Below are positions 1 through 20,800 of a DNA stretch of 25,024 nt, in pieces. The DNA lies in the IMG/VR virus record IMGVR_UViG_3300036806_000225, positions 1 through 25,024 of that record. One strand, 5' to 3'. The notes beneath the pieces were generated by a model. The model saw only the letters and a list, made by a program, of their open reading frames with translations. It made no database searches and was not told the DNA's origin. This DNA comes from a virus. Every line of letters begins with the position of its first letter. Positions within the stretch are counted from its first letter, which is position 1. Made by a program: the position numbers and the translations under genes.

Positions 1-199
1 TCCAGTCGGGGATGAACGCCTCGGTGATGGAATGGCGGCCATCCTCCGGTATGGACGAGCAGCAGAACGGGCACGGCATCCCGGCAGCCCCGTAACAGTC
101 CACGCGGTGGCCTTCTACGGTCACTTCCCACGGGTACTCCGGGTGGTTCTCGCAGACGATTCCGTCGTCAAGGCAGTGCGGGCAGCGGGACGGTTTCAT
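1..199 (-). CDS. Small Cys-rich protein, 3' end cut by window edge
   Basis: I do not recognise a named family. The visible 66 residues start at an ATG that overlaps the stop of the upstream dehydrogenase gene by ATGA, so the two are probably translationally coupled. Cysteine pairs CPHC near residues 6-9 and CPFCC near residues 46-50 suggest a zinc-binding knuckle, and between them is a beta-rich segment (WEVTVEGHRVDCYG). The frame stays open to position 1, so the C-terminus lies outside the window. It is the last visible gene of the leftward modification region. Function is unknown; a small zinc protein is inference from the Cys spacing only. Confidence 0.6.
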   Translation of the reverse strand, partial: MKPSRCPHCLDDGIVCENHPEYPWEVTVEGHRVDCYGAAGMPCPFCCSSIPEDGRHSITEAFIPDW

Positions 200-1494
200 G
201 ACTTGCGGCCGATCCGGATCACGGTCACGCCCTGGGCGTCGGGGATGTAGCCCCACGGGTCAAGCACTACCGAGCCGGCCGGGAACTCGAAGCGCTCAAA
301 CTCGGGGTGACGGGTGCCGATCACGTACACGGCCCGGTAGTCCGGCGCGTCACAGTCGTCGGTGTGGGGATCCCATTGCTGCGGACGTGGCGCCGTCAGC
401 CCTGGCGCCGTCAGTCCGCCGGTCAGCTCATTCGCCGGCCATGGGGACCGTGGGCCAATGAGTTGCGCGAGCAGCAGCGCCGGGGAGCCCGCGGTGAGGT
501 CACTGCCCGGCTTGTACGCCTTGCCGAGGATCACGATGGGCAGCCCGGTCAGTTCGGCGTACTGCACAGTGAGGTCGGCCAGCCACCCGGCCTGTGCCTC
601 CCGGGCGCGGGTCATCTCACCCATCAGGTCATACGACAGGTCCAGCCGCTCCGCCAGCCACGACATCGCGAGCCCGTCACGCGGATGGCAGGCCCCGCCG
701 TCTCCCATCCCGCCGCTCAGGTAGCGGGGTGAGATCACCCGGTCAGTCGCCCGCGCCAGGGCACCGGTCACGTCGTCGCAGTCGGCACCGGTCTTGTGGC
801 AGATCTCCATGACCGTGTTCGCGAAGACGATCTTGGCGGAGATGAAGGTGTTGTAAGCGACCTTGGCCAGCTCAGCGCTCGGGATGCTCATCGTCAGCAC
901 CGGACGGCGGTGGACCGTGCCGAGCACCTGCCGCAGCGCGGCCTCGTCGCCCTCGCGCTGCACCCCGGCGAGCACGAACTCCGGTGCGCAGAAGTCTTTG
1001 ACCGTCGTGCCCATGGCAATAAAGGCCGGGCTGTAGATGAGTTTAACGTGGTCGTTCACCAGGGGCCAGAGCAACCGGTTCGTGGTTCCCGGCAGCACGG
1101 TCGACACCACCACGACCGTGATGTCCTTGCCCTGCTCCTGCGCCGCGCGGCACACGTCCCGGACCGCCTGCACCAGGTAGGCGTACTCGAAATCGCGGGG
1201 CTCAGCCGGGGCCGGGACCTCTCCCCCGTAGGCGGGTGCGTGTGGCGTCTGCACGGCCACGAACACCACATCGGACTCGGCCACCACGTCACCGGTGGAC
1301 GGGAGGACCTTGAGGCTGGAGGCTTCCAGGAGCGGCCCGATGCCCTCCTCCTGCGGAGGATCAGCCTCACCGGCGAGGATCTTCGCCGGGAGCGGGGACA
1401 CGTCGTAGCCCACGACCTGGTGGCGGCCGTGGTACTCCAGGGTCAGGGCGATCGGAAGCCCTATCTTCCCAAGCCCGATCATGCCGAGGTTCAA
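196..1494 (-). CDS. UDP-glucose/GDP-mannose dehydrogenase family protein
   Basis: Members of this family oxidise a nucleotide-sugar C6 alcohol to the carboxylate in two NAD-dependent steps in the cytoplasm. The 432-residue length is normal. A Rossmann nucleotide-binding motif GLGKIG lies at residues 7-12. The middle helix YNTFISAKIVFANT matches the conserved central domain. The catalytic cysteine is in GGACHPRD (Cys269), equivalent to the GGxCxPKD motif. A KAYKPGSD motif follows in the C-terminal domain. The start is TTG, preceded by GGAG at seven bases. Only 33 bp separate it from a divergent plus-strand gene. The exact sugar (UDP-glucose, UDP-HexNAc or GDP-mannose) cannot be told by eye. 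Its place near two glycosyltransferases suggests it supplies an acidic sugar donor. Confidence 0.88.
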   Translation of the reverse strand: MNLGMIGLGKIGLPIALTLEYHGRHQVVGYDVSPLPAKILAGEADPPQEEGIGPLLEASSLKVLPSTGDVVAESDVVFVAVQTPHAPAYGGEVPAPAEPRDFEYAYLVQAVRDVCRAAQEQGKDITVVVVSTVLPGTTNRLLWPLVNDHVKLIYSPAFIAMGTTVKDFCAPEFVLAGVQREGDEAALRQVLGTVHRRPVLTMSIPSAELAKVAYNTFISAKIVFANTVMEICHKTGADCDDVTGALARATDRVISPRYLSGGMGDGGACHPRDGLAMSWLAERLDLSYDLMGEMTRAREAQAGWLADLTVQYAELTGLPIVILGKAYKPGSDLTAGSPALLLAQLIGPRSPWPANELTGGLTAPGLTAPRPQQWDPHTDDCDAPDYRAVYVIGTRHPEFERFEFPAGSVVLDPWGYIPDAQGVTVIRIGRKS

Positions 1495-1515
1495 AGCCGT
1501 ACTCCATGGGGGGTG

Positions 1516-1530
1516 GAGGATAGGGGGATG
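1516..1530 (+). promoter_or_regulatory. Possible leaderless -10 element before the 1528 gene
   Basis: The hexamer GAGGAT is followed by AGGGGG and then the ATG, giving six bases between a weak NANNNT -10 and the start codon. The overlapping GGAGGA could equally be a ribosome binding site, so the reading is ambiguous. The same geometry recurs at 3446, 4582, 6629 and 16974. Confidence 0.25.
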
Positions 1531-1764
1531 CCGATAAGTGATCTAGCCGAGAAGCCCGGCGGGGCCCGCAATGTCGTGAGCTGGGACGTCCGTATTGAGC
1601 GCGACTACCGGCCGGTGTACCTGCTCAGCAACAAGCGTGCCGGGTACGAGTCAGGCACAGCGCAGAATGTTGTCGTGCAGATCGGCGTCCAGTTCGATGA
1701 CGACGAGTCGGCGCAGGAGTTTGAAGCGAAGGTACGGGCGATGCTGCCCGAGGTGGTGCGCTAG
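1528..1764 (+). CDS. Small hypothetical protein, 78 aa
   Basis: Not recognised. The start ATG at 1528 is chosen because GGAGGA lies eight bases upstream; longer frames reaching back to 796 only shadow the dehydrogenase on the other strand. The protein is mixed alpha/beta with a central strand (VVVQIGVQFDDDES) followed by an acidic amphipathic helix ending at the C-terminus. No signal peptide, membrane segment or cysteine cluster is seen. It diverges from the dehydrogenase with a 33-bp gap and is followed by another small plus-strand gene. Confidence 0.6.
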   Translation: MPISDLAEKPGGARNVVSWDVRIERDYRPVYLLSNKRAGYESGTAQNVVVQIGVQFDDDESAQEFEAKVRAMLPEVVR

Positions 1765-1838
1765 GGGTGAACGAAGGCATGCCGTGGCGGGATTACGTCC
1801 CGCTATGGGGAGCGAGGCGCAATGGGAGAACTGCAGCC

Positions 1839-1976
1839 ATGAAGTGCGCAATCATGCTGGCGCTTGCCGAAGGTAAGCATGTGCACGTGGCGTCCAACGC
1901 CGGGATGCGCTGCGCCGGGGGTGCCCCGGAATGCCCTGTGGAGCGCGTCAGCGGCCCGGACTACGGACTGCCCTAG
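1839..1976 (+). CDS. Small hypothetical protein with two Cys (45 aa)
   Basis: Not recognised. The ATG at 1839 has GGGAGA nine bases upstream. A GTG at 1767, two bases after the previous stop, would give 69 residues in the same frame, so the start is uncertain. The core reads as one amphipathic helix (AIMLALAEGKHVHVAS) and then a short Cys-containing tail (MRCAGGAPECPVE). The stop TAG lies inside CTAG at 1973-1976, which also supplies the stop of the opposing dioxygenase gene. Confidence 0.45.
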   Translation: MKCAIMLALAEGKHVHVASNAGMRCAGGAPECPVERVSGPDYGLP

Positions 1977-2668
1977 GCCGCACCTGCCTGCTCAGCGATT
2001 TCTTCCTGCGCGGCCACGATGTCCTCAGGGGCGTCGAACTGGATGACCAGCGCGTCCCGCCGGCGCCCCGGCGGCCCCTCGAGCGGGGTGGCGCCGTGCA
2101 TGAACCGGGCGTCATGGAACAGCAGGATCTCCCCAGGTGCCAGCTGGTGGTCCAGCACCTGCACGTCGTTCTCGAACAGGTAGGACCGTGCACCGTCGCC
2201 GATCCGGTCCAGCACGTAGGTGATGCCGTACTCGAACCCGTCGCGGTGCGGCGAGTTCACCACGTCGTTAAAGCTCCGGAACGCGTGCACGCCCCACGTG
2301 CCCCGCTCGTGCCGCGCCTCAGGCGGGATGAGCGACAGCTGCGCGGCGGCCATCTCCGCGCCGCCGGGGACTTTCATCCAGTGCAGCCGCGGCGCGGGCC
2401 GCCCTTCCACGCCGAGGCGGGCGAACCGGTCGGCGGAGGTCTCAGTCAGCAGGCACGTCTGCCCATCGGCCCACTCGTAGTGGAGGAAGTCTTTCGCCCG
2501 CCACCGGTCCGGCACCGGCCCCTGGGTGTCCGGGTTCGGCAGCAGCACCTCGGGCCGGAAGATCTCCGCCAGGATCTTGAACCTCAGCCCCGGGAAGCCC
2601 AGTTCGTCCTCGGTGACGATCGTGAACCCGCGCTCACGCATGTCCGCGTGGGCCCGCTCATAGTCCAT
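1973..2668 (-). CDS. 2OG-Fe(II) dioxygenase, PF10014-like
   Basis: The protein (231 aa) looks like the 2OG-Fe dioxygenase family that includes bacterial free amino acid hydroxylases such as isoleucine 4-hydroxylase. The iron-binding facial triad is visible as His141-x-Asp143 in SPHRDGFEY and His191 in FMHGATPL. Arg204 in RRRDALVIQF is a good candidate for the 2-oxoglutarate-binding arginine. The ATG overlaps the end of the methyltransferase gene by 11 nt, implying coupled translation. The substrate is unknown; a free amino acid or a sugar or protein side chain are both possible. It sits in the modification region with methyltransferase and glycosyltransferases, which suggests a shared product. 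Confidence 0.8.
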   Translation of the reverse strand: MDYERAHADMRERGFTIVTEDELGFPGLRFKILAEIFRPEVLLPNPDTQGPVPDRWRAKDFLHYEWADGQTCLLTETSADRFARLGVEGRPAPRLHWMKVPGGAEMAAAQLSLIPPEARHERGTWGVHAFRSFNDVVNSPHRDGFEYGITYVLDRIGDGARSYLFENDVQVLDHQLAPGEILLFHDARFMHGATPLEGPPGRRRDALVIQFDAPEDIVAAQEEIAEQAGAA

Positions 2669-3431
2669 CCGGGGAGTCTTTCCGTCTCAGGACCGCGCCG
2701 AGGAACCGGCCGGTAGCGGTCAGGTACTCGCAGCGCTCAACGGTGAACAGGTCCCCGAACCGCTCCACAAGCCGGGCCTCGCTGTACCAGTCGCTGTACT
2801 CGCCGACCGAGTCGAAGAAGGCGATGAACCGGCGGAACGAGCGGTCGGTGGTCACGTCGGCGGGCGGTTCGGTGCCGGTCGCCTCACGCCACCCCTGGTC
2901 GGAGTACAGCATCAGCCGGCACTGCCCACCGGGCCGCAGCAGCGCGTGGGCGTGTTCCATGATCTGCCGCGCCCACGGGATGTGATGCAGGACGCCACTG
3001 GCGTAGAACACGTCGTAGGAGCCGTCTGCGGCGTCGATGTACGGCGGCTCGGTCTGCACCAGGTGGTAGGTGAGCGGATCGCGGTACCCCGACAGGTACA
3101 GCAGCCGCCCGGCGACCTCGAGGTTGAGGCCGCTGATGTCGGCCAGGCCCACCCGGTTGCGGCGGCCGAGTTCCACCGCCTCCATGCCGACGCCGCAGCC
3201 GAAGTCGAGCACGTCCAGGCCGGTCAGCTCGTCCAGGCCCATCACGTCACGCCACCGGTTGCCGTGGTTGCGTTCCCCGTCATACCGGGAGCGGCGCATC
3301 GTGTCCGCGAGGGTGAGCAGCTGCTCGTCGCTCATCTTGAGCATCGCCTCAGCGGGCAGGTAGCCGACGTCATCGACCGGGGGGTTAGACCAGGCTTCTA
3401 CCTGCCGCTGGCCGAATCCGGGATCGGTCAC
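2658..3431 (-). CDS. Class I SAM-dependent methyltransferase
   Basis: The 257-residue protein has the class I SAM-binding motif VLDFGCGVG at residues 74-82, a second acidic strand end (RVGLADIS) and the post-II motif YDVFYASGVLHHIP followed by LLRPGG. This is typical of small-molecule or glycan methyltransferases. The start is a GTG at 3431, preceded by AGGAG at about eight bases; the frame extends further upstream but that part shadows the divergent gene. It overlaps the dioxygenase gene downstream. The methyl acceptor is not evident; phage glycosyltransferase loci often carry a sugar O-methyltransferase, so a glycan acceptor is a reasonable inference. Confidence 0.85.
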   Translation of the reverse strand: MTDPGFGQRQVEAWSNPPVDDVGYLPAEAMLKMSDEQLLTLADTMRRSRYDGERNHGNRWRDVMGLDELTGLDVLDFGCGVGMEAVELGRRNRVGLADISGLNLEVAGRLLYLSGYRDPLTYHLVQTEPPYIDAADGSYDVFYASGVLHHIPWARQIMEHAHALLRPGGQCRLMLYSDQGWREATGTEPPADVTTDRSFRRFIAFFDSVGEYSDWYSEARLVERFGDLFTVERCEYLTATGRFLGAVLRRKDSPDGL

Positions 3432-3445
3432 GCTGGAGTCTCCTG

Positions 3446-3460
3446 AATGATGGGGGGGTG
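3446..3460 (+). promoter_or_regulatory. Possible leaderless -10 element before the 3458 gene
   Basis: AATGAT at 3446-3451 is followed by six G and the GTG start at 3458. No conventional ribosome binding site other than the G-run is present. The 26-bp gap to the divergent methyltransferase start leaves no room for a normal 5' leader. Confidence 0.35.
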
Positions 3461-3883
3461 AGCGACGAACCCAGCGTGTTCCTTCAGTGGAAGGGCACCG
3501 ATGCCTGCCTGGACTTCTACTGCGCCTGCGGGCGGCAGTGGCATTTTGATGGCTATTTCGCCAAGGAACTGACCTGCGGCCACTGTGGGCAGACATGGGA
3601 ACTGCCGCACACCCTCACGCCGCAGCCCGTGGAGCCCGAGCACCCGCTGACGCTCGTCTTTGACGAGGCCGTTCTGCCCGCACCCACCGGCGTGCCTCTG
3701 GGTGATGAAGAGTTCACCCTGTTCTGGCCACGGCCGGAAGTAGACGGCGCACGGCCCGGCTCAATCGTGACCGTGGTGGATGACGACAACGGTCACGGCC
3801 GGGCGATGTACGCCGACCTGATCAAGGGCGAGTTGGCCGACGGAGGGCTGACACTCACACTGCGAACGCGCGGCCCGGTTTAA
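3458..3883 (+). CDS. Zinc-ribbon hypothetical protein, 141 aa
   Basis: Not a named family. An N-terminal zinc ribbon is visible: CACG at residues 22-25 and CGHCG at about 38-42. The rest is a beta-rich, acidic domain (EEFTLFWPRPEVDG; GSIVTVVDDDNGHG; LTLTLRTRGPV), which looks like a small barrel. The GTG start sits behind a G-run. Its stop lies in TTAA at 3880-3883, shared with the opposing glycosyltransferase. It is one of several Cys-pair proteins encoded on the plus strand between the minus-strand modification genes. Confidence 0.7.
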   Translation: MSDEPSVFLQWKGTDACLDFYCACGRQWHFDGYFAKELTCGHCGQTWELPHTLTPQPVEPEHPLTLVFDEAVLPAPTGVPLGDEEFTLFWPRPEVDGARPGSIVTVVDDDNGHGRAMYADLIKGELADGGLTLTLRTRGPV

Positions 3884-4566
3884 ACAGCAGCAAACGCGTC
3901 GATGACCGCCTGGAGTTTCGCCGCGTCAGCCACCCGCTCGGCCTCCAGCGACGCCCACAGGGCCACCACGTTGTCCCGCTGGCCGCGCAGCACCCGGTCA
4001 GTGTGAGTCTGGTCGAACGGCGCTTTGCCCACCCCGGGGTGAAGGTGCTCTATGTTCACGTCAGGCAAATAGACGCGCCGCCCGGTCTTGTCCGCCAGGT
4101 CGTTGATCCACGTGTCCCCGTAGTCGGAACTGAAGTACGGGGCGGTGAAGTAGCCGAGGGTCTCCACCCACCGGCGGTGCAGGAACGAGTGCGTGCCCAG
4201 GTCCGGCCCCTGGATCCCGTCCTCGCCGTGCACCAGCAGGATCTTGTCCGGCACCTTCTCAAACTCGGCCAGCACCGCGGTGTCCCACCCGGGGGTGTGG
4301 AACACGATGTCATCGGCGGCCTGCATCACGATCTCGCCCGAGGCCTGCCCGTAGCAGGCGTTCCACATCGCCGACAGCACGATCCTCGGCCCGGTGATCG
4401 TCACCACATCCAGCCGGGAGGTGATGTCCTCCGGCAGCGGGGCGTCGGAGTCGGCGTAGAACACGAACTCCAGGCCGGACGGGCTGTCGGCGGTCTGGCG
4501 GGCGGAGTGGATGAGCCGGCGGACGCTAGCCGGGCGGTTCCGGGTCGGTGCCAGGAGGGAGATCAC
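3880..4566 (-). CDS. GT-A fold (family 2-like) glycosyltransferase
   Basis: The protein (228 aa) opens with SLLAPTRNRP, a typical GT2 first strand, has acidic YADSD at residues 37-41 and a DxD-like AADDIVF at about 83-89, where metal and nucleotide-sugar bind. A later segment (DYGDTWINDLADKTG) resembles the acceptor-side region. I prefer GTG at 4566, with AGGAG eight bases upstream; an ATG at 4584 in the same frame is the alternative. It probably transfers a sugar in the cytoplasm; there is no membrane segment. Donor and acceptor are unknown. Its gap to the divergent gene at 4594 is only 27 bp. Confidence 0.78.
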   Translation of the reverse strand: MISLLAPTRNRPASVRRLIHSARQTADSPSGLEFVFYADSDAPLPEDITSRLDVVTITGPRIVLSAMWNACYGQASGEIVMQAADDIVFHTPGWDTAVLAEFEKVPDKILLVHGEDGIQGPDLGTHSFLHRRWVETLGYFTAPYFSSDYGDTWINDLADKTGRRVYLPDVNIEHLHPGVGKAPFDQTHTDRVLRGQRDNVVALWASLEAERVADAAKLQAVIDAFAAV

Positions 4567-4581
4567 GGGGGGTGCTCCTGT

Positions 4582-4596
4582 CATGCTTAGGGGGTG
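4582..4596 (+). promoter_or_regulatory. Possible leaderless -10 element before the 4594 gene
   Basis: CATGCT at 4582-4587 is followed by TAGGGG and GTG at 4594, the same six-base spacing as at 3446. It lies within 27 bp between two divergent starts. No -35 element is obvious. Confidence 0.35.
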
Positions 4597-4956
4597 AGCA
4601 ATGACCTGAACTGCCGCGACTGCGGCGCGGCAAGCGGCCAGCCACATGACGACGGCTGCGACATGGCCACCTGCGTGCACACCGGCCAGCAGCGGCTTGC
4701 CTGTGGGGCGATCGGCCCGCTGATAGGTCAGGAGCCGCACGACTGCGGCCACGACATCTGGATGGGCGAGCCCCACGGCTACGCCGAATGCCGCCGGTAC
4801 GGACTGTGGGTGTACTGCCCGCCTACCGGATCACCGGTGCCCTGCGGGCCGGATCACCCGGATGCCATCCCTAACATGAACGCACTCATCCGCAATGGCG
4901 TGTGGGATCGGCAGACCCAGACGTGGGTTCTCCTGGATGGCGTAGTGCGAGACTAG
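4594..4956 (+). CDS. Actinobacterial Cys/His-rich hypothetical protein, 120 aa
   Basis: The pattern (CRDCG near residues 7-11, DGCDMATCVHTGQQRL, HDCGHDIWMG, YAECRRYGLWVYC, VPCGPDHPDAIPNMN) resembles short conserved proteins of unknown function common in streptomycetes and their phages. The Cys and His clusters suggest one or two zinc sites. It starts with GTG, with no Shine-Dalgarno apart from a G-run, and diverges from the GT2 gene by 27 bp. Its stop lies inside CTAG at 4953-4956, shared with the HNH gene. No function can be assigned. Confidence 0.75.
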   Translation: MSNDLNCRDCGAASGQPHDDGCDMATCVHTGQQRLACGAIGPLIGQEPHDCGHDIWMGEPHGYAECRRYGLWVYCPPTGSPVPCGPDHPDAIPNMNALIRNGVWDRQTQTWVLLDGVVRD

Positions 4957-5381
4957 AAGAGAGTTATCCCTTCTTCCGGGTCATCCATCGGGACGGATGC
5001 CCACTTGATGCCGGCTACGGCCTTCCTGATCGTGGTGTGGCTGACGCCAAACTCCTCGGCCAGCGCCCGGGTCGACCCTTCCCTGCGTGCGCACCCTGGG
5101 CCGCCACCCGGCTTGCCCGGCCGGTACCGCTGCCGGATCTCAACAACCTGCGCCTCGGTCAGTTTCGCGGTAACGCTGAGTTCGCCACCCTTGTCGTACT
5201 GCATGTGGCACCGTACGCACAACTCGCGGTAATCCTGGCGGTTGCGCGAATACGAGCGCCCTTTAATCAGCGCCCACTGGCTAGTCGCGGCCTTGCCGCA
5301 CTCCTCGCGAATTCCCTCTTTGGAGTAGTGCGCATTCAGGTACATGTGTATAGCGGCATACTGCGTGCTCTCACCCGTCAC
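4953..5381 (-). CDS. HNH homing-type endonuclease with C-terminal HTH
   Basis: The protein (about 142 aa) has an HNH-type core: ECGKAATSQWALIKG, then YSRNRQDYRELCVRCHMQYD, as in small phage HNH nucleases. A C-terminal helix-turn-helix (TRALAEEFGVSHTTIRKAV) would aid DNA binding. I choose GTG at 5381 because it overlaps the GT4 stop as GTGA; the longer frame to 5465 would shadow the GT4 C-terminus. An internal ATG (MYLNAHYS) is possible. It is probably a free-standing selfish endonuclease lodged behind the glycosyltransferase. One zinc-knuckle pair seems incomplete, so activity is uncertain. Confidence 0.75.
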   Translation of the reverse strand: MTGESTQYAAIHMYLNAHYSKEGIREECGKAATSQWALIKGRSYSRNRQDYRELCVRCHMQYDKGGELSVTAKLTEAQVVEIRQRYRPGKPGGGPGCARREGSTRALAEEFGVSHTTIRKAVAGIKWASVPMDDPEEGITLF

Positions 5382-6565
5382 ACTTCCATTGTAGCCGATT
5401 CGGCGGCATATTTCGCCCTTCGTTCGGCCATCAATGGTTCCAGCCAGTCCAAGCACGGCTTCCAATAGTCCACCAAGACACGCTCAGTGTCGTATTGCAG
5501 AGCAAAGTCCCGGGCCTTAGCCTTCTTGGCGGTATATTCCTTGCCCCGCTGATAGGCCGTCTCGTAGACCTTCGCGAGCTGCGGTATAGATGGCTTGATC
5601 CAGGTAGCGCGGTGCGTCGGGTTCCAGAATTCCTCGCCGCCGACTTTCCACCCGGCCGCACCGACCTCGGAAAGCGCCGAGCAGTCCGTCACCACCGTCG
5701 GAATGCCGCACGCGGACGCTTCGAGCACCGGCAGGCAGAAACCCTCACCGAGCGAGCCGGCGGAGTACAGGTCCAGCGCCCCGTACCAGTTGATCAGATG
5801 CTCCTGCGGAACCTGGCCCGTCAGGTACGGGTACTGGTCAACAAAGGAAACGCAGTCCCCGATGCCCAGGTAGTCGGTGATCGCCGACAGGTCCACCGCG
5901 TGCTGCTCACGGACCATGCCGTGCACCAGCATCACCGTGTCCGGGTGCTTTTTATGCAGCAGCTGGAATGCGGCGAACTGCTCGAACATGCCTTTGCGGA
6001 AACCGTCCTTGTTCGCGGCGTTGATCCCGATCGCGAACCGGCCCGAGACGCCGAGCATCTTCCGCCACTCGTCCCGGCCCTCACCCGGCTTCCACACATT
6101 CGTGTCAATGGCGTGCGGCACGTAGAAGATGTCCGAATCCGGGAGCGCATCCCGCAGGAGCCGCTCCCCGAACCGCGACATCGCCAGCACCGGGGCATTG
6201 GAGACCTTCAGGCAGTCCCCGTCCATCCTCCCCAGCGGGGAGCAGTCCACCGGCATCCAGTGGCACACCGGCACGCCCTTGAGATGCTCCGGGCCGTACA
6301 CCCAGATGTCCCCGAGGGTGATCACCACGTCCGCGCCGGTGCGCTTGGCGTGCTCCCCGAGCATCTGCGCCCCATACGGGTCCGCGGGGGCGGAGCCGGG
6401 GATGACCGGGATGTCATTCCACGTAAGCGGGGCACCCTGGAGGCCGTAGAAGGCGGAGATGATGACCTCGTGGCCCAGTTCGGCCAGGCGCGGCACCCAC
6501 ATGGCTGTTTGCTGACCGTAGCCAGTCGGTGACCAGGGACTGTTCGAGTGCCAGATGATCTTGAT
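5378..6565 (-). CDS. GT4-like glycosyltransferase with unusual start
   Basis: A GT-B fold glycosyltransferase: the C-terminal half carries FCLPVLEASACGIPTVV, the donor-binding E-x7-E-like region, preceded by LYSAGSLGEG. The first ATG in frame (6502) would cut off the first strand. Upstream, in frame, lies KIIWHSNSPWSPTGYGQQT, the standard N-terminus of this family, and the frame is closed by a TGA two codons before ATC at 6565. So translation must start at a rare AUC, or the sequence is one base off: removing one C from ATGCACC gives an in-frame ATG. About 395 aa. Its acceptor is unknown; it probably acts with the GT2 and dehydrogenase genes. Confidence 0.8.
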   Translation of the reverse strand: MKIIWHSNSPWSPTGYGQQTAMWVPRLAELGHEVIISAFYGLQGAPLTWNDIPVIPGSAPADPYGAQMLGEHAKRTGADVVITLGDIWVYGPEHLKGVPVCHWMPVDCSPLGRMDGDCLKVSNAPVLAMSRFGERLLRDALPDSDIFYVPHAIDTNVWKPGEGRDEWRKMLGVSGRFAIGINAANKDGFRKGMFEQFAAFQLLHKKHPDTVMLVHGMVREQHAVDLSAITDYLGIGDCVSFVDQYPYLTGQVPQEHLINWYGALDLYSAGSLGEGFCLPVLEASACGIPTVVTDCSALSEVGAAGWKVGGEEFWNPTHRATWIKPSIPQLAKVYETAYQRGKEYTAKKAKARDFALQYDTERVLVDYWKPCLDWLEPLMAERRAKYAAESATMEV

Positions 6566-7342: not shown

Positions 7343-8131
7343 ATGGCCGACGGTACACGGCGCGGTGGCTATAGCCCCGCATGGACCGAGGCAGAACTGG
7401 CCTACCTCCGCGAGCACTACGCCACGGTGCCGGCCGGCGAGATCGCCGAAACGCTAGGGCGCAGCTATAACGCCGTCCTCGTCCGGGCCCACCTTGAGAA
7501 GTTGCCGTCAAGGCAGCGGGCCGGATGCAACTCGCTCGTGCCCGACTACTTCCGGGTCATCGACACGCCCATGAAGGCATACCTGCTCGGGCTGCTGGTG
7601 GCAGACGGGAGCATTAGCCCAGCGAACCAGCTCAAGCTAGAGGTTCACGAGAAGGACCGCTGTCTGGCGGAACTGGCCCGGCAGGAGATCGCGCCCAGTG
7701 CCCGCATCGGCTCGTACCGGACCCGAACCACGCCGATGGTGCGGTTCATGATCCAGTCCGCGGGCCTAGCGGCCGACTTGGCCCGTCACGGTGTAGTGAA
7801 CTGCAAGAGCCTGATCACCACATGGGCCGACGAGGTGCCCCCGCAGTACGAGAACAGCTACATCTGTGGCGTTTACGACGGCGACGGAAGCCTGGACCGG
7901 CGCTGGAGGTACCGGTGGAGCGTGATATCGGGTAACCCCGATTTCCTGGAGGTCATGCAGAACCACATCCTCGCGCGCACGGGGATCTGGGTCGGCGGCC
8001 CCTACTGTGACACGCGGCACGAGAACGCGTGGTCGATCGTGGCCACTGGCAGGCCAGTCCCGGAACTGGATGCATGGGTGCACCGTGATGTCCCGGGGCT
8101 GACCCGCAAGCGGTTTGCTACTGACTGGTGA
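7343..8131 (+). CDS. LAGLIDADG homing endonuclease, 262 aa
   Basis: Two LAGLIDADG helices are visible: YLLGLLVADGS (acid Asp88) and YICGVYDGDGS (acid Asp181), so this is a single-chain, two-motif enzyme that makes a specific double-strand cut. The N-terminal 55 residues form a SANT/HTH-like domain (AWTEAELAYLREHY ... IAETLGRSYNAV) that probably helps DNA recognition. TAGGAG lies six bases before the ATG. Its stop TGA (8129-8131) directly abuts the stop of the capsid C-terminal exon on the other strand (TGATCA). Because it lies outside, not within, the intron at 8242-8542 and on the opposite strand, it may home the intron by acting next to it; that link is inference. Confidence 0.9.
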   Translation: MADGTRRGGYSPAWTEAELAYLREHYATVPAGEIAETLGRSYNAVLVRAHLEKLPSRQRAGCNSLVPDYFRVIDTPMKAYLLGLLVADGSISPANQLKLEVHEKDRCLAELARQEIAPSARIGSYRTRTTPMVRFMIQSAGLAADLARHGVVNCKSLITTWADEVPPQYENSYICGVYDGDGSLDRRWRYRWSVISGNPDFLEVMQNHILARTGIWVGGPYCDTRHENAWSIVATGRPVPELDAWVHRDVPGLTRKRFATDW

Positions 8132-8241
8132 TCAGGACCAGGTACCCGTCGAGCCGGAACGGTCCGACTTCTGGATGCCCTGCAGAAGCCCGCAGTAGAA
8201 CGGGGCGTTGACCACCATGGCGCCGAACATGAACATGCTGT
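8132..8241 (-). CDS. Major capsid protein, C-terminal exon (exon 2)
   Basis: This stretch encodes about 35 residues: SMFMFGAMVVNAP, then FYCGLLQGIQKS, ending GTGTWS and a TGA at 8132-8134. It has no start codon with a proper ribosome binding site of its own and reads like the hydrophobic last strands and tail of a major capsid protein. Joined to exon 1 after the T at 8543, it restores a frame through FRYSMFMF and gives a total of 624 residues. The 5' boundary at 8241 is inferred from the intron's terminal G and from frame; it could shift by several bases. Confidence 0.7.
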
Positions 8242-8542
8242 CGATTTGTTACTCCCCGCTCTCGCGGAGGGGGCGGTCATTTCTGCCGCCCTCTGCGCCG
8301 CTAAGCGCAGACCCGGCCATATCTTCACCCCGGAGGGGTGTCCCGTACATGGTCTGTGAACCTTCCCATCGGAGCGAATCCAGGTGGGCTCGGCTGCTGA
8401 TTACCCCTGCTGCCCAGTTCTCAAGCCGTCACGCTCGGGCTTTCGCCCCACGTTGTGGCCTGGGCAGGTGATACGGGCTTTCCAGCAATTCTCGGGATTT
8501 TCACTAACGGGTTACCCCGTCAGGCGGCAAGCGTATATGCAT
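8242..8542 (-). ncRNA. Group I intron (IA-like) in the capsid gene
   Basis: On the minus strand the catalytic core elements occur in order. P2 is a hairpin with a GTAA loop (8507-8520). The P3 strand ATCCCG (8493-8498) pairs with CGGGA after P7. The P4 strand TTGCTGG (8482-8488) pairs with the R-element AATCAGCAGCC (8392-8402). The S-element GTTCACAGACCATG starts at 8361. P8 is CACCCC-TCC-GGGGTG (8326-8340). The P7 3' strand AAGATATGGCC (8315-8325) is the hallmark of phage IA introns. Three P9-region hairpins follow, the last with a GAGA tetraloop. Length is about 301 nt, with no reading frame inside. The 5' splice after the T at 8543 can pair CGGT with GCCG as P1; this junction is tentative. 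Confidence 0.85.
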
Positions 8543-10307
8543 ACCGGAACGACGCGTCGATCACGGGCCAGCTGATGCTCAAATAGTCCTGCACCGCGAC
8601 GAACTCCACCACGTTGCTGACGTTCGACCACGCGAAAGGCATGGTGTAGGACATCAGCAGCACGTTGCCTTGCGGCAACCACGGGTGGACGACAACCCTG
8701 ACCACGCTGCGCGTGACCGGGTTCTGGAACTCCGACACGGCCGCGCCGAGGCGGACGCCGGGCACCTCCGACTGCTCCACGAACAGCCGGTAGTTGGTGG
8801 CGGCACCGCTCTGCACGATGTCGTTGGACAGGCGGGCGATGTCGCCGCCTTCCCCGATGATCTCGGCCGGGTCCGCACGGAACGATCCGTACGTGGTCCC
8901 GGTGCCATCCCACAGGTTCTGGAGCGCCGTGTTCAGGACCGAGGTCTTCAGGGTGTCGCCGACCGACTGATTCACATAGCCGGCCTGCCACGAGCTGGGG
9001 TACACGGATGCGGTCGCAGCGTGACCCGACAGGACGGAGAACAGTCCCTCTTCGTCGTTCGCGGACGAGGTGCCCGAGTCGGTCGAGAGAGGCTGGGCGG
9101 TGGTGGTCGGCAGCGCACCCTGGAGGGTGTAGTACAGGCCACCAACGTTGTTGGCGAACAGGTGGTAGGTGCCCGCGGAGGCGCCCGTGGTCGCGTAGAT
9201 CTTGTACCACATGGCACCGGCGACCGGAGCGATCTGCACGTCCACGACCTGGCCCGAGGACCAGGCAACCGACGCCGACGATCCGGCTGCCGTCTCCCCG
9301 AAGAAGGTGAGGGCGCTGACCTCCACGAAAACGTTCGTGGTGATGCCGGTCAGTGCGGTCTCACCCGAGTTCGCCGACCTCGCGGTGAGGGTGGCGGCTC
9401 CGGGTGCGGAAATGGCCGAAGAAGTGGCGCCCAAATGGCTCGCCTCTTCGTTCAGCATGAATTCCTGGAGCAGTAGGAGATTGGCCAGTGCGGAAATGTC
9501 CTCAAAGCCCTGACCGCCAAACTGCGCAAGCCAGGAAAGGTTTTCCGACAATCCCCAAAAACGGTAAGGGATATTGAGGTCAACCGCGTCCTGCGTGCCA
9601 GTTCCGGGCAGGTTCAGCGGCCAGTTGACCGAGGAACTCGCGCCGGAGATCGCACCGCCGGACTGCACCAGCTCGGGAATCGCGAGGCGGACGAACGATC
9701 CGCCCGACGGGCCGGTCTGGGAGCCGGAGATGCCGGTGATGATCTTGCGCCGCCTGCTGGTGCCCTGGCCGGGCACACGGGCCAGCTTGTTGCGAAGCGG
9801 GCTGTAGACGGGGTAGATCAGCGACGACGGCGCCACCAGGTCGAACGGCACGAAACCGGTCGACAGCGGCGACGTCAGGGTGATGCTCTTGCCCAGTTCG
9901 GCCGACAGCACGTTGTTGAGCTGTGCGGTCAGCTGGCCGAGCGCTTGTGACTGCGGCGACGCCGACATGAAGGCGCCGAACTGGCCGGCGAACTCGGGCG
10001 CGAGGCCCTTGACCACTTCACCGGGCTGCTCGATGCCCTTCTTGATCGCCGACCGGAACTCGCGCTCGGCGCGCATGCTGCGCTTGAAGATCTCGCCGTC
10101 GTCGGACAGCGGCATGTTGCCGCCGACCTTGGCGTAGCCGGCGCCCTTGACGAGCGCGGGCATCTTGTCGGACAGCATGAGGTCCGGGGCCTTGTACCGG
10201 TGCGGGTCCGCGCTGGCGTACCACTGCGGGTTCTCACCGGCGGTTTCAAGGACAGCCGCGGCGGCCGTCCCGTAGGGCACCGCTGGGGTGTCCGTTACTG
10301 CGTCCAT
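8543..10307 (-). CDS. Major capsid protein, exon 1
   Basis: This 588-residue segment lies directly downstream of the protease and scaffold-like genes, as expected for a major capsid protein. The N-terminal third is helical and charged; then come SLIYPVYSPLRNKLARVPG and a long domain with Ala/Gly/Ser/Thr-rich beta repeats (roughly residues 290-400) that looks like an inserted Ig-like or decoration domain. The end, VVVHPWLPQGNVLLMSY ... QDYLSISWPVID, is capsid-like. The ATG at 10307 has GGGAGG six bases upstream. Unspliced, the frame stops at 8520, inside the intron. Product assignment rests on order and sequence feel, not a search. Confidence 0.78.
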
Positions 10308-10366: not shown

Positions 10367-12979
10367 TCAGGCGGGAACATGCTCACCTGCCATCTGGTCA
10401 AGGAGGGCCTGAGCGCGCTCCCGCGTATCGGGGTCAGGCGATGCCGCCTGCTTGGTGACGTACTCAAAGAGGTCACGCTGGTCCTGCACCGCTGCAGCGA
10501 CGCGGGTTTCGTGGGCCTCGTCTACCAGGGACCGCTTCGCCACGGGCTGAGCGGTTCCTGTACCGGCCCGGGCCATCTGGCCCCGGACGGGGGCCATGGC
10601 CGGGTCAGGCTGTGAACCCAGTTCGTCAAGCTGCGCTTGCATCTTGGTGACCTGGGTGTTCTGGTCCGCCGCGTGGGCGGCGAGCTTGGTGGCGATGATC
10701 GCCTCGACTTCGGCGGGGCCGAGGATGTTCGCCTCGGCCGCGCGCAGGGCCTGCTCGAGCATCTTGGCGATCTTCTTCTTGCCGGCGCCCTTGTTGCCCT
10801 TGATCTTGCGGGAGGGGCCGGGGACACCGCCCATGTCCTCGCCCGCAGCCTTGACGGTGGAGACACCGCCGGTGGCGTGGGGCATCTTCATCTCCGGCGT
10901 GTTCGTGGCACCCATCCCCGGGGGGAGGACGGTGCGGGCGGGGGCCATCGGGCAGCAGCCGTCGTAGGTGGCCTGGATGTGGTCGTGCATGCTCCGCATC
11001 GCGGCGGCGGCCATGTCCTTCTCGGTGGCCGAGTAATACTCGTGGCCGCTTGAGCCGGGCGGGCTGGGGTTGTTCGGCCCGTGGTCGCCAGGGGATGGGC
11101 TCTGGTGGCCGGCGGTGAGGTTGCCGCGCTCGAACTGCTGCGGTTCGGGGGTGTGGGTGGACGGCGGGACGTTCACCGTCCACTTGTTCGCCGACTCGGC
11201 CGCGTGGCCCGAACCGAGGTAGGGCCGCTGGAACGAGCCGGGCTTGATGCCCATCGACGGGGTGATGTGCTCGTCCGGGTACATGTCCATGAACGACTTG
11301 TGCAGCGCGGCGTGACCGTCGGCGACCGCGGCCGGGACCTCGGCGGCACGCTTGCGGAACGCCTGCGCCATCGCGGCGAGAGCGGAGAACGCGCCCGCGG
11401 GGCCGAACTCGCCCTTGCCGAGCAGTTCGGCCGCTTCCTTCGCGAACGGCTCCGGGTCGACCGCGTCGGCGACCGACTTCATCGCCGGGTAGGCGGCCAG
11501 CACGTCATCGGCGGCGTACGCGGCGCAGGTGGCGTCGTGCATCCGCTGCACCTCATAGGAGGCCTTCATCGACAGCGCGGCCACGCTCGCGGGCACGTGG
11601 TCCATGTGCTGGTCCGGGTCGGTGCCCAGGCCAGCGTCGGGTTCCAGCTGCTCCACGGTGGAGGTGCCGTCAGGCTCGCGGTGCGGCGCGACAGGCATCA
11701 CCTCAGGCGGCAGTGGCCGGGCGCCCGGCCCAGCGGCCTTGGCGGCCTCCTGCTGGATCTGGGCGATCAGCTCACCGGCGACCCTGTCGCTGATCAGGCC
11801 CTCGGCGAGGGTCGCCTTGACCGCCTCGGTGGCGGCGTGGGTGGCCTTTTCTGCCTTGGTGGGCTTCATGAAGCCCTTGCCCTTGCACGCGGGGCACTTC
11901 ATGCCGCCACCGCGGATCATGCCCTTGCCCTTGCAGGTGCCGCAGTTCTTGCCCTTCGGCATGTCGTCACCGTCGGCCTTCTCGGCCACCTCGGCGGCAG
12001 GGGCCACGGCGGCAGGCACGGCGGGCGCTTCTGGGATCCCGGGAGTCTCGGCGGCGTCCTTTTTGGTCTCGTTGCCGTCATCGAGCGGGTTGGGCACGCC
12101 GAGTTCGCTGGCCCGCCGTGCGATGAGGTGCCGGGCCGCAGTGACATCGCCGTGCCCGGAGCGGGCGAGGTCGGCCGCGTTGCCCAGGTCTTCCTTGTTC
12201 TCGATCGGGTAGGACAGGTTCGGCAGCGCCTTGTGGTCGGCCGCGAGACGGCGCCGTGTGGCGGTGTCGATGTCCCGCTTGTAGACCGGACGCTCCGCCT
12301 CCATGACGGCCTTCAGCATGTCCTCCGCGGCTTCCCCGATGACGATCGGCTCGTCCCCGGTCAGAGTCACCAGCTCGGGGCCGGTCTCGCCCACGAACGC
12401 CGGGACCGGGCCAGTGCCGTGCTTGGCCAGCCAGATCGCCGCGCCCGCCTGGGTGCCGTCGAGGCCCTCGGCGTCGCCGTGGGCGGACCACTTGCGCCAC
12501 GCGGCCTGCGCCTGCAGGTACTCGGTGCCGGTCGCCGCGCCCTTGCCGAGCGGCTCGGTGGAGCGGTGCTCCTTCAGGGCCGCCAGGTAGGCCGCCTGGT
12601 CGTCCGGGGAGGCGTTCTTCACCGCCAGCGTGCCGTCAGGGTCCAGTTCGGGCGCGGCTTCCTTCGCGGCGCTCTCCGCGCCGTCCTCAGCGGCGTCCGC
12701 GTCGCTGGCGGCAGTTCCGGCGTCGTCGTCGGCTTCCTTCTTCGCACCCCCTACGCCCTCACCGTCCTCATCGGAGCCGGGGACCAGGCGGGTGTCGTCG
12801 TCACCACCGTCCATGGAGTCGGTCTTGCTGTCGGCGTCCATGTCACCCCCCTGGGCGGCTTTGATGACGAGAAAGGGCAGGCCCGAGGCGGGCGCGAGTA
12901 CGCCGTCGACGCGATCGGGGTCAAATTTCTCAAGCTCGGTGATGCCTTCGAGATCGTCCTCGAGCACGGGCTTGGCCAT
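10367..12979 (-). CDS. Scaffold-like structural protein with Zn-finger-like repeat (870 aa)
   Basis: Placed between protease and capsid genes, as scaffolds often are. The N-terminus (about residues 18-45, FDPDRVDGVLAPASGLPFLVIKAA) resembles the opening of actinophage head-assembly proteins. Residues ~55-115 are highly acidic and Ala-rich. Residues ~240-297 (ADHKALPNLSYPIENKEDL and a following helix) resemble a short domain found in phage head proteins. Two CxxCxGKG repeats (CGTCKGKG, CPACKGKG) lie at about 344-370, like half a DnaJ zinc domain. The C-terminal ~120 residues are basic then helical (LIKK-type and KMQAQLDEL), fitting a capsid-binding scaffold tail. The ATG follows the protease stop by two bases. 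Function is inferred. Confidence 0.6.
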   Translation of the reverse strand: MAKPVLEDDLEGITELEKFDPDRVDGVLAPASGLPFLVIKAAQGGDMDADSKTDSMDGGDDDTRLVPGSDEDGEGVGGAKKEADDDAGTAASDADAAEDGAESAAKEAAPELDPDGTLAVKNASPDDQAAYLAALKEHRSTEPLGKGAATGTEYLQAQAAWRKWSAHGDAEGLDGTQAGAAIWLAKHGTGPVPAFVGETGPELVTLTGDEPIVIGEAAEDMLKAVMEAERPVYKRDIDTATRRRLAADHKALPNLSYPIENKEDLGNAADLARSGHGDVTAARHLIARRASELGVPNPLDDGNETKKDAAETPGIPEAPAVPAAVAPAAEVAEKADGDDMPKGKNCGTCKGKGMIRGGGMKCPACKGKGFMKPTKAEKATHAATEAVKATLAEGLISDRVAGELIAQIQQEAAKAAGPGARPLPPEVMPVAPHREPDGTSTVEQLEPDAGLGTDPDQHMDHVPASVAALSMKASYEVQRMHDATCAAYAADDVLAAYPAMKSVADAVDPEPFAKEAAELLGKGEFGPAGAFSALAAMAQAFRKRAAEVPAAVADGHAALHKSFMDMYPDEHITPSMGIKPGSFQRPYLGSGHAAESANKWTVNVPPSTHTPEPQQFERGNLTAGHQSPSPGDHGPNNPSPPGSSGHEYYSATEKDMAAAAMRSMHDHIQATYDGCCPMAPARTVLPPGMGATNTPEMKMPHATGGVSTVKAAGEDMGGVPGPSRKIKGNKGAGKKKIAKMLEQALRAAEANILGPAEVEAIIATKLAAHAADQNTQVTKMQAQLDELGSQPDPAMAPVRGQMARAGTGTAQPVAKRSLVDEAHETRVAAAVQDQRDLFEYVTKQAASPDPDTRERAQALLDQMAGEHVPA

Positions 12980-17283: not shown

Positions 17284-17876
17284 TGGGCCGCAAGGAACAC
17301 GAACTTCCGGAAAAGGTAATCTGGGCCACGCATGCGCTGCTAACGGCCTGGGAGCATATGAATCCGAGCGCTCCCCTGAAAACCGCCGAGGTCTTCAAGT
17401 ACCTTGAAGGGCGGATGGCACCGCGCAGGCTGGGTGATGCACTTCGCGCCGCGGCAAACGAAGGCCTGGCAGAACATCCGGCCCGTGGCATCTGGGTTCC
17501 CACCGCCTGCGCGTGGGCGATGCGCGCCGCCCTTGAGGACTTCACGCTCCGCCGATGGGCCTTCTGTGATGTCTGCACCAAGGCCTTTAAGCCAGCCACC
17601 GACGGGCAACTGCGATGCTCAGAAGCCTGCCGTGAGTTCGTGCGGCGGTACAAGAAAATACCTACGGAACAACTTCCAAAGCTCTGGGCCGAGGCCCAGG
17701 CCCGCGAAGGACCGTGCCCAAGTGGCAAAGTTGCCTACCCAGACAAGAAGGCTGCCAGGAAGGGCGGCCAGGGCGTTACATACCTGCGCTACAGCGGCTG
17801 CCCCGGCTGGATCGACGTCTACCAGTGCGGCAAGTGCTCAAGCTGGCACCTGACATCCAAGCCGCAGCGGGCCTAG
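17283..17876 (+). CDS. Two zinc-site hypothetical protein, 197 aa
   Basis: Residues 1-80 are helical and may form a winged-helix-like fold (LKTAEVFKYLEGRMAPRRLG). CDVC ... CSEAC at about 97-118 forms a first zinc site. The C-terminal part has CPSGKVAYPDKKAARKGG, then DVYQCGKCSSWHLTSKP, a small zinc ribbon common in actinobacterial proteins. The start GTG has AAAGGAGG five bases upstream and overlaps the PadR stop by one base. The stop lies in CTAG at 17873-17876, shared with the portal gene. Probably nucleic-acid binding; function unknown. Confidence 0.75.
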   Translation: MGRKEHELPEKVIWATHALLTAWEHMNPSAPLKTAEVFKYLEGRMAPRRLGDALRAAANEGLAEHPARGIWVPTACAWAMRAALEDFTLRRWAFCDVCTKAFKPATDGQLRCSEACREFVRRYKKIPTEQLPKLWAEAQAREGPCPSGKVAYPDKKAARKGGQGVTYLRYSGCPGWIDVYQCGKCSSWHLTSKPQRA

Positions 17877-20800
17877 CCGCCGGCGTGCGACCGCTTGAGT
17901 TTCTCCCACTCGGCGTCCGCACGGGTGGCGGCCTGCTGAACCTGCGGGGTGACCTTGACCTTGCCGCCGAAAGCGGTCCCGTGTTTCCACTCGCGAATCG
18001 CCTGAATCGCGGTAGCGATAGCGTGGGATTCGCTGTACCCCTCGTCCCTCATGAGCGCCCGCGCAGTGTTCTGATGGTAGGCGGGGAGTTGCTGCATGGA
18101 TGGGACGTGCCTGTCGGGAGTGTGCCACAGGCCCTCGTGGCCGAGCGGATGGTGGACCGTGGAGACGACCGGCGTCTGCGCCGACTTGGACAGCGCCCGC
18201 CGGATCAGCTTCGCGTCCGCCGAAAGCTCCGGCCGCACCGCCGGGTTGTCCTTGATCTGCTCCGGGTACCACCAGGCGAGTGCTTCAACTGTGTCGCCGT
18301 CCGGGTCGCCGTCGGGGTTGGCCACCTCATCGCGGTCCCCGAAGACGTCGACGGCATCCTCGGACGGGACGGTGAGCACGAAGCCGCGGTAGCGGCCGTT
18401 GGAGGCGTTCCACAGCCCGTCCAGGTCCCCGTCAGGCGCGGCCACGCCGACCTCTTCGCTCCACTCGCGGAAAGCGGCCTCGAGCGCGTTCTCACCCTCG
18501 TCCAGCCGTCCGCCGGGGAACTCCCACAGGCCGCCGGCGTTGTCGCCGTCATCGACGGCGCGCTGAAGCATGAGGATGCGCCCGGTGTCGGCCGCCCGCA
18601 CCACGAGCCCAGCCGCGCGCAGGCCTTTCTTGCCCTTGACCGCCGCGTCGCCGATCGGGAACCGCTGCACCTCGCTGCCGCGGTGCACTGACAGGTGGGT
18701 GAAGACCACCGGCCGGGGTGCCAGCGGGGCCGGGAGGGGCTCCCCCTCGTCCAGGTAGGCGAGGGTGACGTGGGGACGCCAGTCCTTGTGCTCGCTGGCG
18801 GACAGGTGCTCCAGGTCCGCCCGCAGCATCTGCGCGCCGGGGACGTGCGCCGGGATGTAGGCGGGGACCTTGCCGTCGCTGCTGGCGCTGGCCGGGAAGG
18901 TGGCGATGCCGGACAGTTCGCCCGCGAGCGGGCCGCTCATCCCTGCTGCCGCATTCCTGGCTTCGGTGCACGCCTGGGCGAACAGTTCGTCACGCACGTC
19001 CGGGCCGAGGTAGACCACGGTGATGTGGTGGTCGGTGACGCCACCCGGCAGGGGCTGGACGGTGCCTTCCGGCAGGTCCAGGGAGATCATCCCCGAGCGC
19101 GGCGTCAGGCCCGGCGTACCGCCTTTGACTGTCGGCGCAACGCCCGCGATGGTGGCCTTGGCCAGGTCGCACGCGAGGTCGACGCCCACACCCTTGGCCA
19201 GGGATTCGCTGATCTGCGCGAGGGCACCCTGGCCGATGGAGCGGGGCTGCCACGAGCTTACGGCGCCCCCCCGGCGCAGATGGGCTCGCAGCAGCCCCAG
19301 TTCCCGCAGCGCCGGCTTGACACCTGCGGCGGGAGCATCGGCGGTCACCGGCACATCACCGGCGAGCAGCGCTGCTGTGATCGCCTTGCGTACCGGTGAC
19401 GGCTCCCCGCCTGCCGTCTTGGCAGTCTTGGCCCGGTGTGCGGACGCGGCCCCCGCGTGCGCCGGCGTGCCCGTTGGGCCGGTGGAACGCTGCGCGTGGC
19501 TGACGGCCTGGGCCTGCTGGTGGCGCTGGCCGGACGACAGCCGGTTCCGTGGCACCGTCGGCGCGACGCTCGGGCCGCCGGCCTGGGGGGTGCCGCCGGG
19601 CAGGGCCAGCGCGCCCGCCGGGCCTTTGCCGCCCGGGCCACCGGGGCCGCCGGGGCCGGGTGCGCCGCCGAGTGGCTGCGCGGTCGCGTTCGTGACGCCG
19701 GTGAGCGGCACCAGGCCGCCCCACTGCGTCGCCCACCCCGGGTCGGAGGTGATCTCCAGGCCCCACGGGTCGCGGCCCAGTTCCTTGCGCGCCTCGTCAA
19801 TCGACGCGAGGCCAACCTCGACCTGCTGGGCGAGGACCGGGGTGAGGGTCGCGGCGTCCGGCTCCTCGGACATGCCGTCCCACTGCCACTCCATGTCCCA
19901 CTGGCCGCAGACCGTCTGGATGATCCGGTCGAACAGGGCGAGTTTGAAGAACAGCAGGATCGGGACGGTCGACTTGCGGTCCCGGATGCCGACCTGGGCG
20001 GTGACGGTCTGGCGGGCCGACCCGGATGAGGCGGCGGCGGCGGACAGCTGGGGGATGATGCCGACCTCGAACGGCTGCACGTCGAAACCCATGCACGTCT
20101 GGATCTGCACCAGGGTGTCGAAGTCGTCGGCGAGGACGGTGGACTTCTGCGGGTCGATCTTCGAGCCGCCCGGCAGGACGATGATCTTGTGCTTCCACGC
20201 CTGGTCGCCGGCGATGGCGTTCAGCGCGTCCTGGAGTTCCCGCAGCTGGGAGGGGGTCATGGACGTGTCGCCGGGCGAGATGTACACGGCCGGGACGGTG
20301 CCCTCGGTGTAATACTGCCGCTGCCATTCCTGCTTGTTCAGGCCCGTCATGACCGGCACCAGGGCACGCTCGATGAAGCTCATGCCGTACGGCGTCCACA
20401 CCCTTTTGGTGAACGGCATGTACATGAGCTGGTCGCTGCGGTACTCCGCCGTCAGTTCCTCATCGGGCGCGGCACCGTCGCGCTGCTCCTCGATCAGGGT
20501 CATCAGGTCCACGCGGGGCACGCCGTACTCGAACTGCTGGAACGCCGGGTTCGGGGGCGTGGGGCGGCCGCCGCGGACCGTCACGAGCGGCTTGATCAGC
20601 GCACCGTCGATCAGGTCCAGCGCCGCGATGGACGTCCCCATCAGGCCCTTGCCGGCGAGCCTGGACGGCTGCGCGTAGAGGCTGATCGAGTCGGTGACGA
20701 ACAGTTCCTCGAGGATGGCGTTGAACCAGCCGGTGAAGTCGTCGTACTGCTCAGGGTCGGGCTTGCGGAAGAACCGGATCACCTTGTCGCGGCGCTCGGC

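Follow-up and report, generated by a model that had tools for sequence, protein, structure and literature searches.

A catalytic group I intron very probably interrupts the major capsid gene of a tailed soil phage on the minus strand of the window, at 8242-8542. By window we mean the whole stretch of DNA that was analysed, a complete IMG/VR virus record of 25,024 bases. We assign a probability of about 92% to this reading, according to which the intron belongs to a lineage residing in virion genes and likely spread by endonuclease-helped recombination. The fold, the boundaries, the restoration of the frame and the distribution over genes were determined by computation, and the contigs used are metagenomic.

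According to the proposed mechanism the capsid transcript would fold into a P1-P9 ribozyme, a guanosine cofactor would cut after U8543 and the freed 5' exon would then attack after G8242, joining FR-Y-SMFMF to give a capsid protein of 624 aa. The intron lineage would be specialised on major virion genes, relatives having between 1 and about 9 copies in each capsid gene, at about 30 conserved sites. The window copy has no endonuclease of its own; it would most likely pass from phage to phage when capsid loci recombine, with the aid of Vsr-like or antisense LAGLIDADG genes in sibling introns and here perhaps of the homing endonuclease gene (HEG) that touches exon 2. Splicing in vivo, guanosine-dependent self-splicing, cleavage by the HEG product, mobility and any contribution of the neighbouring endonuclease are all inferred, as there are no RNA or protein data for the phage. 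Table 1 gives the coordinates of the individual features.

Table 1. Features of the interrupted capsid gene, its intron and the adjacent endonuclease gene.
Feature	Position	Strand	Details and support
Exon 1, major capsid gene	8543..10307	-	PHROG 13692 match; alignment with 15 relatives
Exon 2, capsid gene	8132..8241	-	Last 35 codons and stop TGA (8134-8132); matches C-termini of intronless relatives
Group I intron, 301 nt, without internal ORF of note	8242..8542	-	First base A8542, last base G8242
P1: exon CGGU (8546-8543) with IGS GCCG (8528-8525)	8525..8546	-	U8543.G8528 at the 5' splice site
P2 hairpin CTGACGGG-GTAA-CCCGTTAG	8504..8523	-	Compensatory change in 8/8 pairs
P3 (8497-8493 with 8345-8341) around P4-P6	8341..8497	-	100% paired, 3/5 pairs compensatory
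R element AATCAGCAGCC	8402-8392	-	Within the P3-enclosed P4-P6 part
P7 GACCAT (8354-8349) with ATGGCC (8320-8315); P8 8339-8327	8315..8354	-	
P9, P9.1 and P9.2 hairpins and terminal GAGTAACAAATCG	8242..8311	-	Alignment and covariation
LAGLIDADG endonuclease gene, 262 aa, motifs LLGLLVADG and ICGVYDGDG	7343..8131	+	

The interrupted capsid gene

The identification of the gene as that of the major capsid protein, presumably of the HK97 fold, rests on homology to an annotated protein and on gene order, the structural model being poor. The predicted product is 25% identical (E 1e-9) to the major capsid protein annotated in Arthrobacter phage Mufasa8, and the genes upstream are those for portal, head morphogenesis and protease proteins. 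The match to the SU10_MCP profile stayed below the cut-off. An AlphaFold2 model of the intronless homologue L002 reached a pLDDT of only 54.5, with the SPO1 and SU10 capsids as best Foldseek matches (E about 3e-3 and 0.3), and because of its poor quality the intron sites were not mapped onto the capsid fold.

The mechanical ORF call starts the capsid frame at ATG 10340; an alternative is ATG 10307, which is preceded by GGGAGG and on direct reading has the better ribosome-binding sequence. Left unspliced, the frame terminates at TGA 8522-8520. Excision of 8542-8242 yields 635 aa from the first start and 624 aa from the second, with a stop that ends at 8132, and the match to the PHROG 13692 profile grows from 467 to 490 of its 491 positions and from 207.6 to 223.2 bits. 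Intronless relatives, which run on through the junction, can be aligned with the spliced 624-aa product over its whole length, and nearly invariant C-terminal residues are encoded in exon 2. Of the 23 relatives from the protein search, 15 encode the spliced protein uninterrupted, among them L002-L011, L014 and L024. The join of T8543 to A8241 and the resulting 624 residues are those that the original prediction had given. That prediction had also placed the stop correctly at 8520, though not correctly just after ISWPVIDASF: RYAYTLAA follows ASF in frame, so the stop does not lie directly behind that peptide.

We also noted some neighbouring genes. The portal frame (17873-21313, minus strand) encodes 1146 aa in an unusual fusion with 2'-5' RNA ligase/2H phosphoesterase-like and NUDIX domains. 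An 870-aa low-complexity ORF (10367-12979, minus strand), in which a DnaJ-like CxxCxGxG zinc motif occurs, lies between the protease and capsid genes and may encode a scaffold. The region 196-6502, downstream of the capsid gene, holds a glycan-type cluster with nucleotide-sugar dehydrogenase-like, methyltransferase-like and two glycosyltransferase-like ORFs, of which the first three were assigned by reading only.

Intron identity, boundaries and fold

Searching the minus strand with the Rfam model RF00028 returned a match at 8552-8293 over the full model (1-253) with 63.1 bits (E 4.7e-14), compared to a gathering score of 50 bits. The boundaries were derived from the empty site. In blastn alignments with L003 and L011 the window positions 8542 and 8241 fall on one and the same base, so the insertion measures exactly 301 nt. 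This fixes the boundary to within one base, and the group I rule, by which the 5' exon ends in U and the intron in G, picks T8543/A8241. No endonuclease ORF and no other frame of note was found within the 301 nt. The same insertion site, 600.1, is occupied in L012, L015, L131 and L128, and all five carriers have the intron at the identical nucleotide in separate assemblies. A blastn search of the window intron and of an intron of a second structural class (class B, see below) against 50,697 phage records gave no match, leaving the window intron without cultured relatives.

To assess the fold we aligned 11 related compact introns from seven sites to a hand-drawn P2-P9.2 structure. In this alignment 92.2% of the cells were paired, compared to only 33-42% when the partners were slid by 1-3 columns. 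Changes on both sides affected 45 of the 70 pairs, a count never reached in 500 shuffles (mean 29.7). Compensatory changes occurred in P2, P3 and P5-P9 including the P3/P7 core; P7 was paired in 93.9% of its cells, with changes of C-G to U-A and A-U to C-G, and in the window copy it contains a single A.C mismatch. The window intron folds with a z score of -3.5, that is 3.5 standard deviations below shuffles. P1 pairing averages 4.5 bp at called sites versus 3.3 bp at nearby T's, and P10 is weak at the window site on direct reading. Furthermore the intron end GAGTAACAAnnnG is common to most of the 55 related introns described below and to the proven BAKA intron.

The RF00028 match, the intronless homologues and the covariation agree with the original prediction that a group I intron splits the capsid gene. 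Its order of P elements on the minus strand recurs within the RF00028 match, and its splice sites, which had been offered as inference, proved exact, with U ending the 5' exon, G ending the intron and a U.G pair in P1. It had rightly described 301 nt without an internal frame, but calling this a minimal ribozyme was overstated: 301 nt is an ordinary size for an ORF-less group I intron, and sibling introns here measure 224-283 nt.

The adjacent endonuclease gene

The original prediction was silent on the LAGLIDADG gene next to exon 2. This gene is convergent with the capsid gene and abuts its stop, the two stop codons lying back to back at TGATCA. The product matches the phrog_4645 endonuclease (4e-27) and scores 21.8 bits with LAGLIDADG_3, just under the cut-off. 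It is 31% identical to the enzymes of antisense HEGs located at site 297 within the capsid introns of L044 and L133; given these homologues inside relatives' introns, it may mobilise the window intron. In other sibling introns, at several sites, the sense strand encodes Vsr-like proteins containing DUF559. A small ORF at 4953-5465 (minus strand) is a possible second free-standing HEG; it matches HNH endonucleases weakly and has a helix-turn-helix at its C-terminus.

One specific route is collaborative homing, in which the free-standing LAGLIDADG enzyme would cut an intronless capsid allele at or near 600.1 and repair would copy the intron together with exon 2 and the HEG. This is plausible because the HEG directly adjoins exon 2, at 110 nt from the insertion site, because L005 lacks this additional insertion, the same neighbours being 88 bp apart there, and because it is related to the L044 and L133 enzymes, which are intron-borne in the same gene. 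Both motifs also retain their catalytic acidic residues, and in L015 the intron is accompanied by a HEG remnant in the same place. Precedents for the arrangement are described for ICP1, T7-like phages and a cyanophage (PMC10448857). The window resembles those loci in that its HEG lies outside the intron and adjoins the interrupted gene, and differs in that the association is partial, the enzyme is convergent with the host gene and cleavage is inferred. However, no HEG was detected in the sequence available for the 600.1 carriers L012, L131 and L128, whereas in L115 and L135, which lack the 600.1 intron, remnants of the HEG sit at the 3' end of the capsid gene, and no target site is known. A strict co-occurrence of intron and HEG was rejected on this basis, and the location of the HEG outside the intron and the remnants beside capsid genes without this intron indicate that the link is loose. 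We therefore entertain collaborative homing only tentatively and would put its chances somewhat below even.

Introns in related capsid genes

The window alone does not reveal that the capsid family habitually carries many introns, and the original prediction did not mention those of the relatives. After the removal of duplicates we counted 55 full-length introns in 20 capsid genes, at 31 called positions that correspond to about 30 real sites. The calls were made with a spliced protein-to-DNA aligner whose only demand is that exons end in U and introns in G. Nearly all of the 55 introns end in (G)TAACAnnnnG, a feature unused by the aligner, and the 72 intronless capsids that served as control gave a single internal call, without the TAACA end. 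Terminal "introns" (residues below 75 or from 625) were discarded as junk as the same calls appeared in the intronless controls. Short internal calls of 42-57 nt, obtained with a lowered length limit, were also rejected except for a pair at site 168.2, because the controls gave similar calls in a variable loop.

Micro-exons of 13-42 nt were encountered in the multi-intron genes. L012, whose exons are about 87% identical to the window exons at the DNA level, has five introns (after residues 171, 258, 587, 600 and 614) and exons of 38 and 42 nt. L017 has four introns, L131 five with one exon of about 13-16 nt, and L128, from a metagenome-assembled Actinomycetes bin, at least four in the part available. 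The largest number, about nine, was found in L129 (a 132-kb record): there are nine full-length calls, six of them with independent RF00028 matches, a 19-nt exon and one ambiguous 3' boundary. For the L129 intron at site 176.1 (minus strand, 3949-4250) restoration of the frame would need A, not G, at the end.

The sites are unevenly distributed. Three stretches (residues about 157-182, 258-299 and 574-623) contain 93% of them. Together these stretches account for 21% of the protein and are its best-conserved regions (mean conservation 0.80 vs 0.67), a result never reached in 10,000 random sets and only in 2 of 548 circular shifts. Sites 271, 276, 587 and others hold the class-B introns. These resemble the LittleE intron and that of BAKA, with 69-70% identity to the latter over about 215 nt, as seen for those at site 276 in L016 and L017. 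The intron tree is star-like and nearly unresolved, so the routes of spread remain uncertain. Site labels are slightly clustered on it (21 changes vs a shuffled mean of 23.3, reached in 13 of 300), and no clustering by phage label was found.

At site 168.2 we observed insertions of only 53 and 60 nt (L133:4001-4053, plus strand, and L129 minus-strand 3866-3925). These elements have U...G ends, their IGS fits the exon and a P2-like hairpin is conserved, but a ribozyme core is absent. Their removal is needed for PFDL(V/L)APSRLIY, and a 23-nt exon followed by a full group I intron lies downstream. Ribosomal bypass was rejected, as splicing yields the conserved-length DL(V/L)APSRLIY and bypass would not.

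Genes that host the lineage

A scan of the whole records of 28 related phages with RF00028 mapped matches to the capsid gene only. As the model misses many class-B copies, class-B introns elsewhere in these records are not excluded. For a search independent of the gene we used an exact 22-nt motif from the R-element (core), counting contig stretches that were not dereplicated. The motif was found in 36 stretches, 29 in three major-capsid families (21 in this family, 5 in PHROG 1357 and 3 in PHROG 10 major head genes) and 7 in a probable major-tail gene. One type of gene follows the motif in the seven tail stretches, with weak to moderate matches to the PHROG 10528/9522 major tail protein (1.4e-7 to 2e-3); L056 was assigned by a shared peptide only. 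Judged by these matches, the lineage sits in genes for abundant virion proteins, the major capsid and the probable major tail protein. The intron is located just inside the probable major tail protein gene in all seven (L032, L037, L039, L045, L051, L056 and L062), and this gene lies upstream of a tail-assembly-chaperone-like gene.

The same bias towards capsid and tail genes, together with about 30 sites in one gene and the lack of a HEG in most copies, would also be accounted for if free introns attacked the abundant late capsid and tail mRNAs by reverse splicing through short IGS matches, with reverse transcription and recombination fixing the copies. The IGS does fit each local exon end, and L012_614 and L015_168 are sisters (support 99/98) from different sites and phages. 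However, an IGS match is needed for splicing whatever the insertion route, endonuclease targeting also predicts that sites follow the most conserved columns, and no reverse transcriptase is in evidence (no search was made). We consider this route unlikely.

Discussion

Transcript data are lacking, yet it is very improbable that nothing is spliced, be it that the capsid ends at the TGA (606 aa or shorter) with a dead intron or that the split is an assembly artefact, given the nearly invariant residues in exon 2, the core and peripheral helices that stay paired through sequence change and the five carriers with the identical insertion nucleotide in separate assemblies.

A single, spliced capsid intron, as in our preferred reading of the window, is an already known type. 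For the Cluster J mycobacteriophages the splicing of the LittleE gp13 capsid intron and the BAKA gp34 tail intron was confirmed by RT-PCR, and the LittleE intron has an antisense HEG reported as LAGLIDADG-like (PMC3706429). These likewise belong to group I, have U...G ends and interrupt virion genes of high-GC Gram-positive phages, and the BAKA intron ends in GGAGTAACAAACCG like the siblings studied here. LittleE and BAKA differ in having one intron per gene and another capsid family; the window copy differs in its structural class (R element CAGGGGTAATCAGCAGCC) and in the position of the HEG outside the intron. Several group I introns per gene, small exons and exon skipping are described for Twort orf142 and the Bastillevirinae (Landthaler and Shub 1999, cited in PMC11878797). 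The maximum reported there is two or three introns per gene, mainly in DNA polymerase, terminase and RNR genes (PMC11878797); here the major capsid gene holds as many as five in L012 and about nine in L129, with micro-exons down to 13 nt. The intron density and the specialisation on virion genes are new as far as the open-access literature shows; subscription literature was outside our scope.

A broader proposal is that, in actinobacterial soil phages, this lineage has specialised in the virion genes with the highest expression, at a density unknown in phages (about nine per gene, with exons of 13-23 nt), and that the 53- and 60-nt insertions, which would be reduced to P1-P2 and lack a core, are spliced by the ribozyme of the neighbouring intron. 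Resting on sequence comparison alone, this remains possible but doubtful.

Most descriptions of phage introns concern genes of DNA metabolism, and the reason for that choice is an open question (PMC11878797). The lineage studied here does the opposite, occupying major capsid and probable major tail genes, the mRNA of which must be spliced in bulk. In metagenomes, ordinary gene callers will truncate or miss multi-intron capsid genes. With five to nine ribozymes and exons of 13-23 nt the speed and accuracy of cis ribozymes under coupled transcription-translation becomes testable, and the multi-intron capsid genes also open exon skipping and the route of introns to new sites to test.
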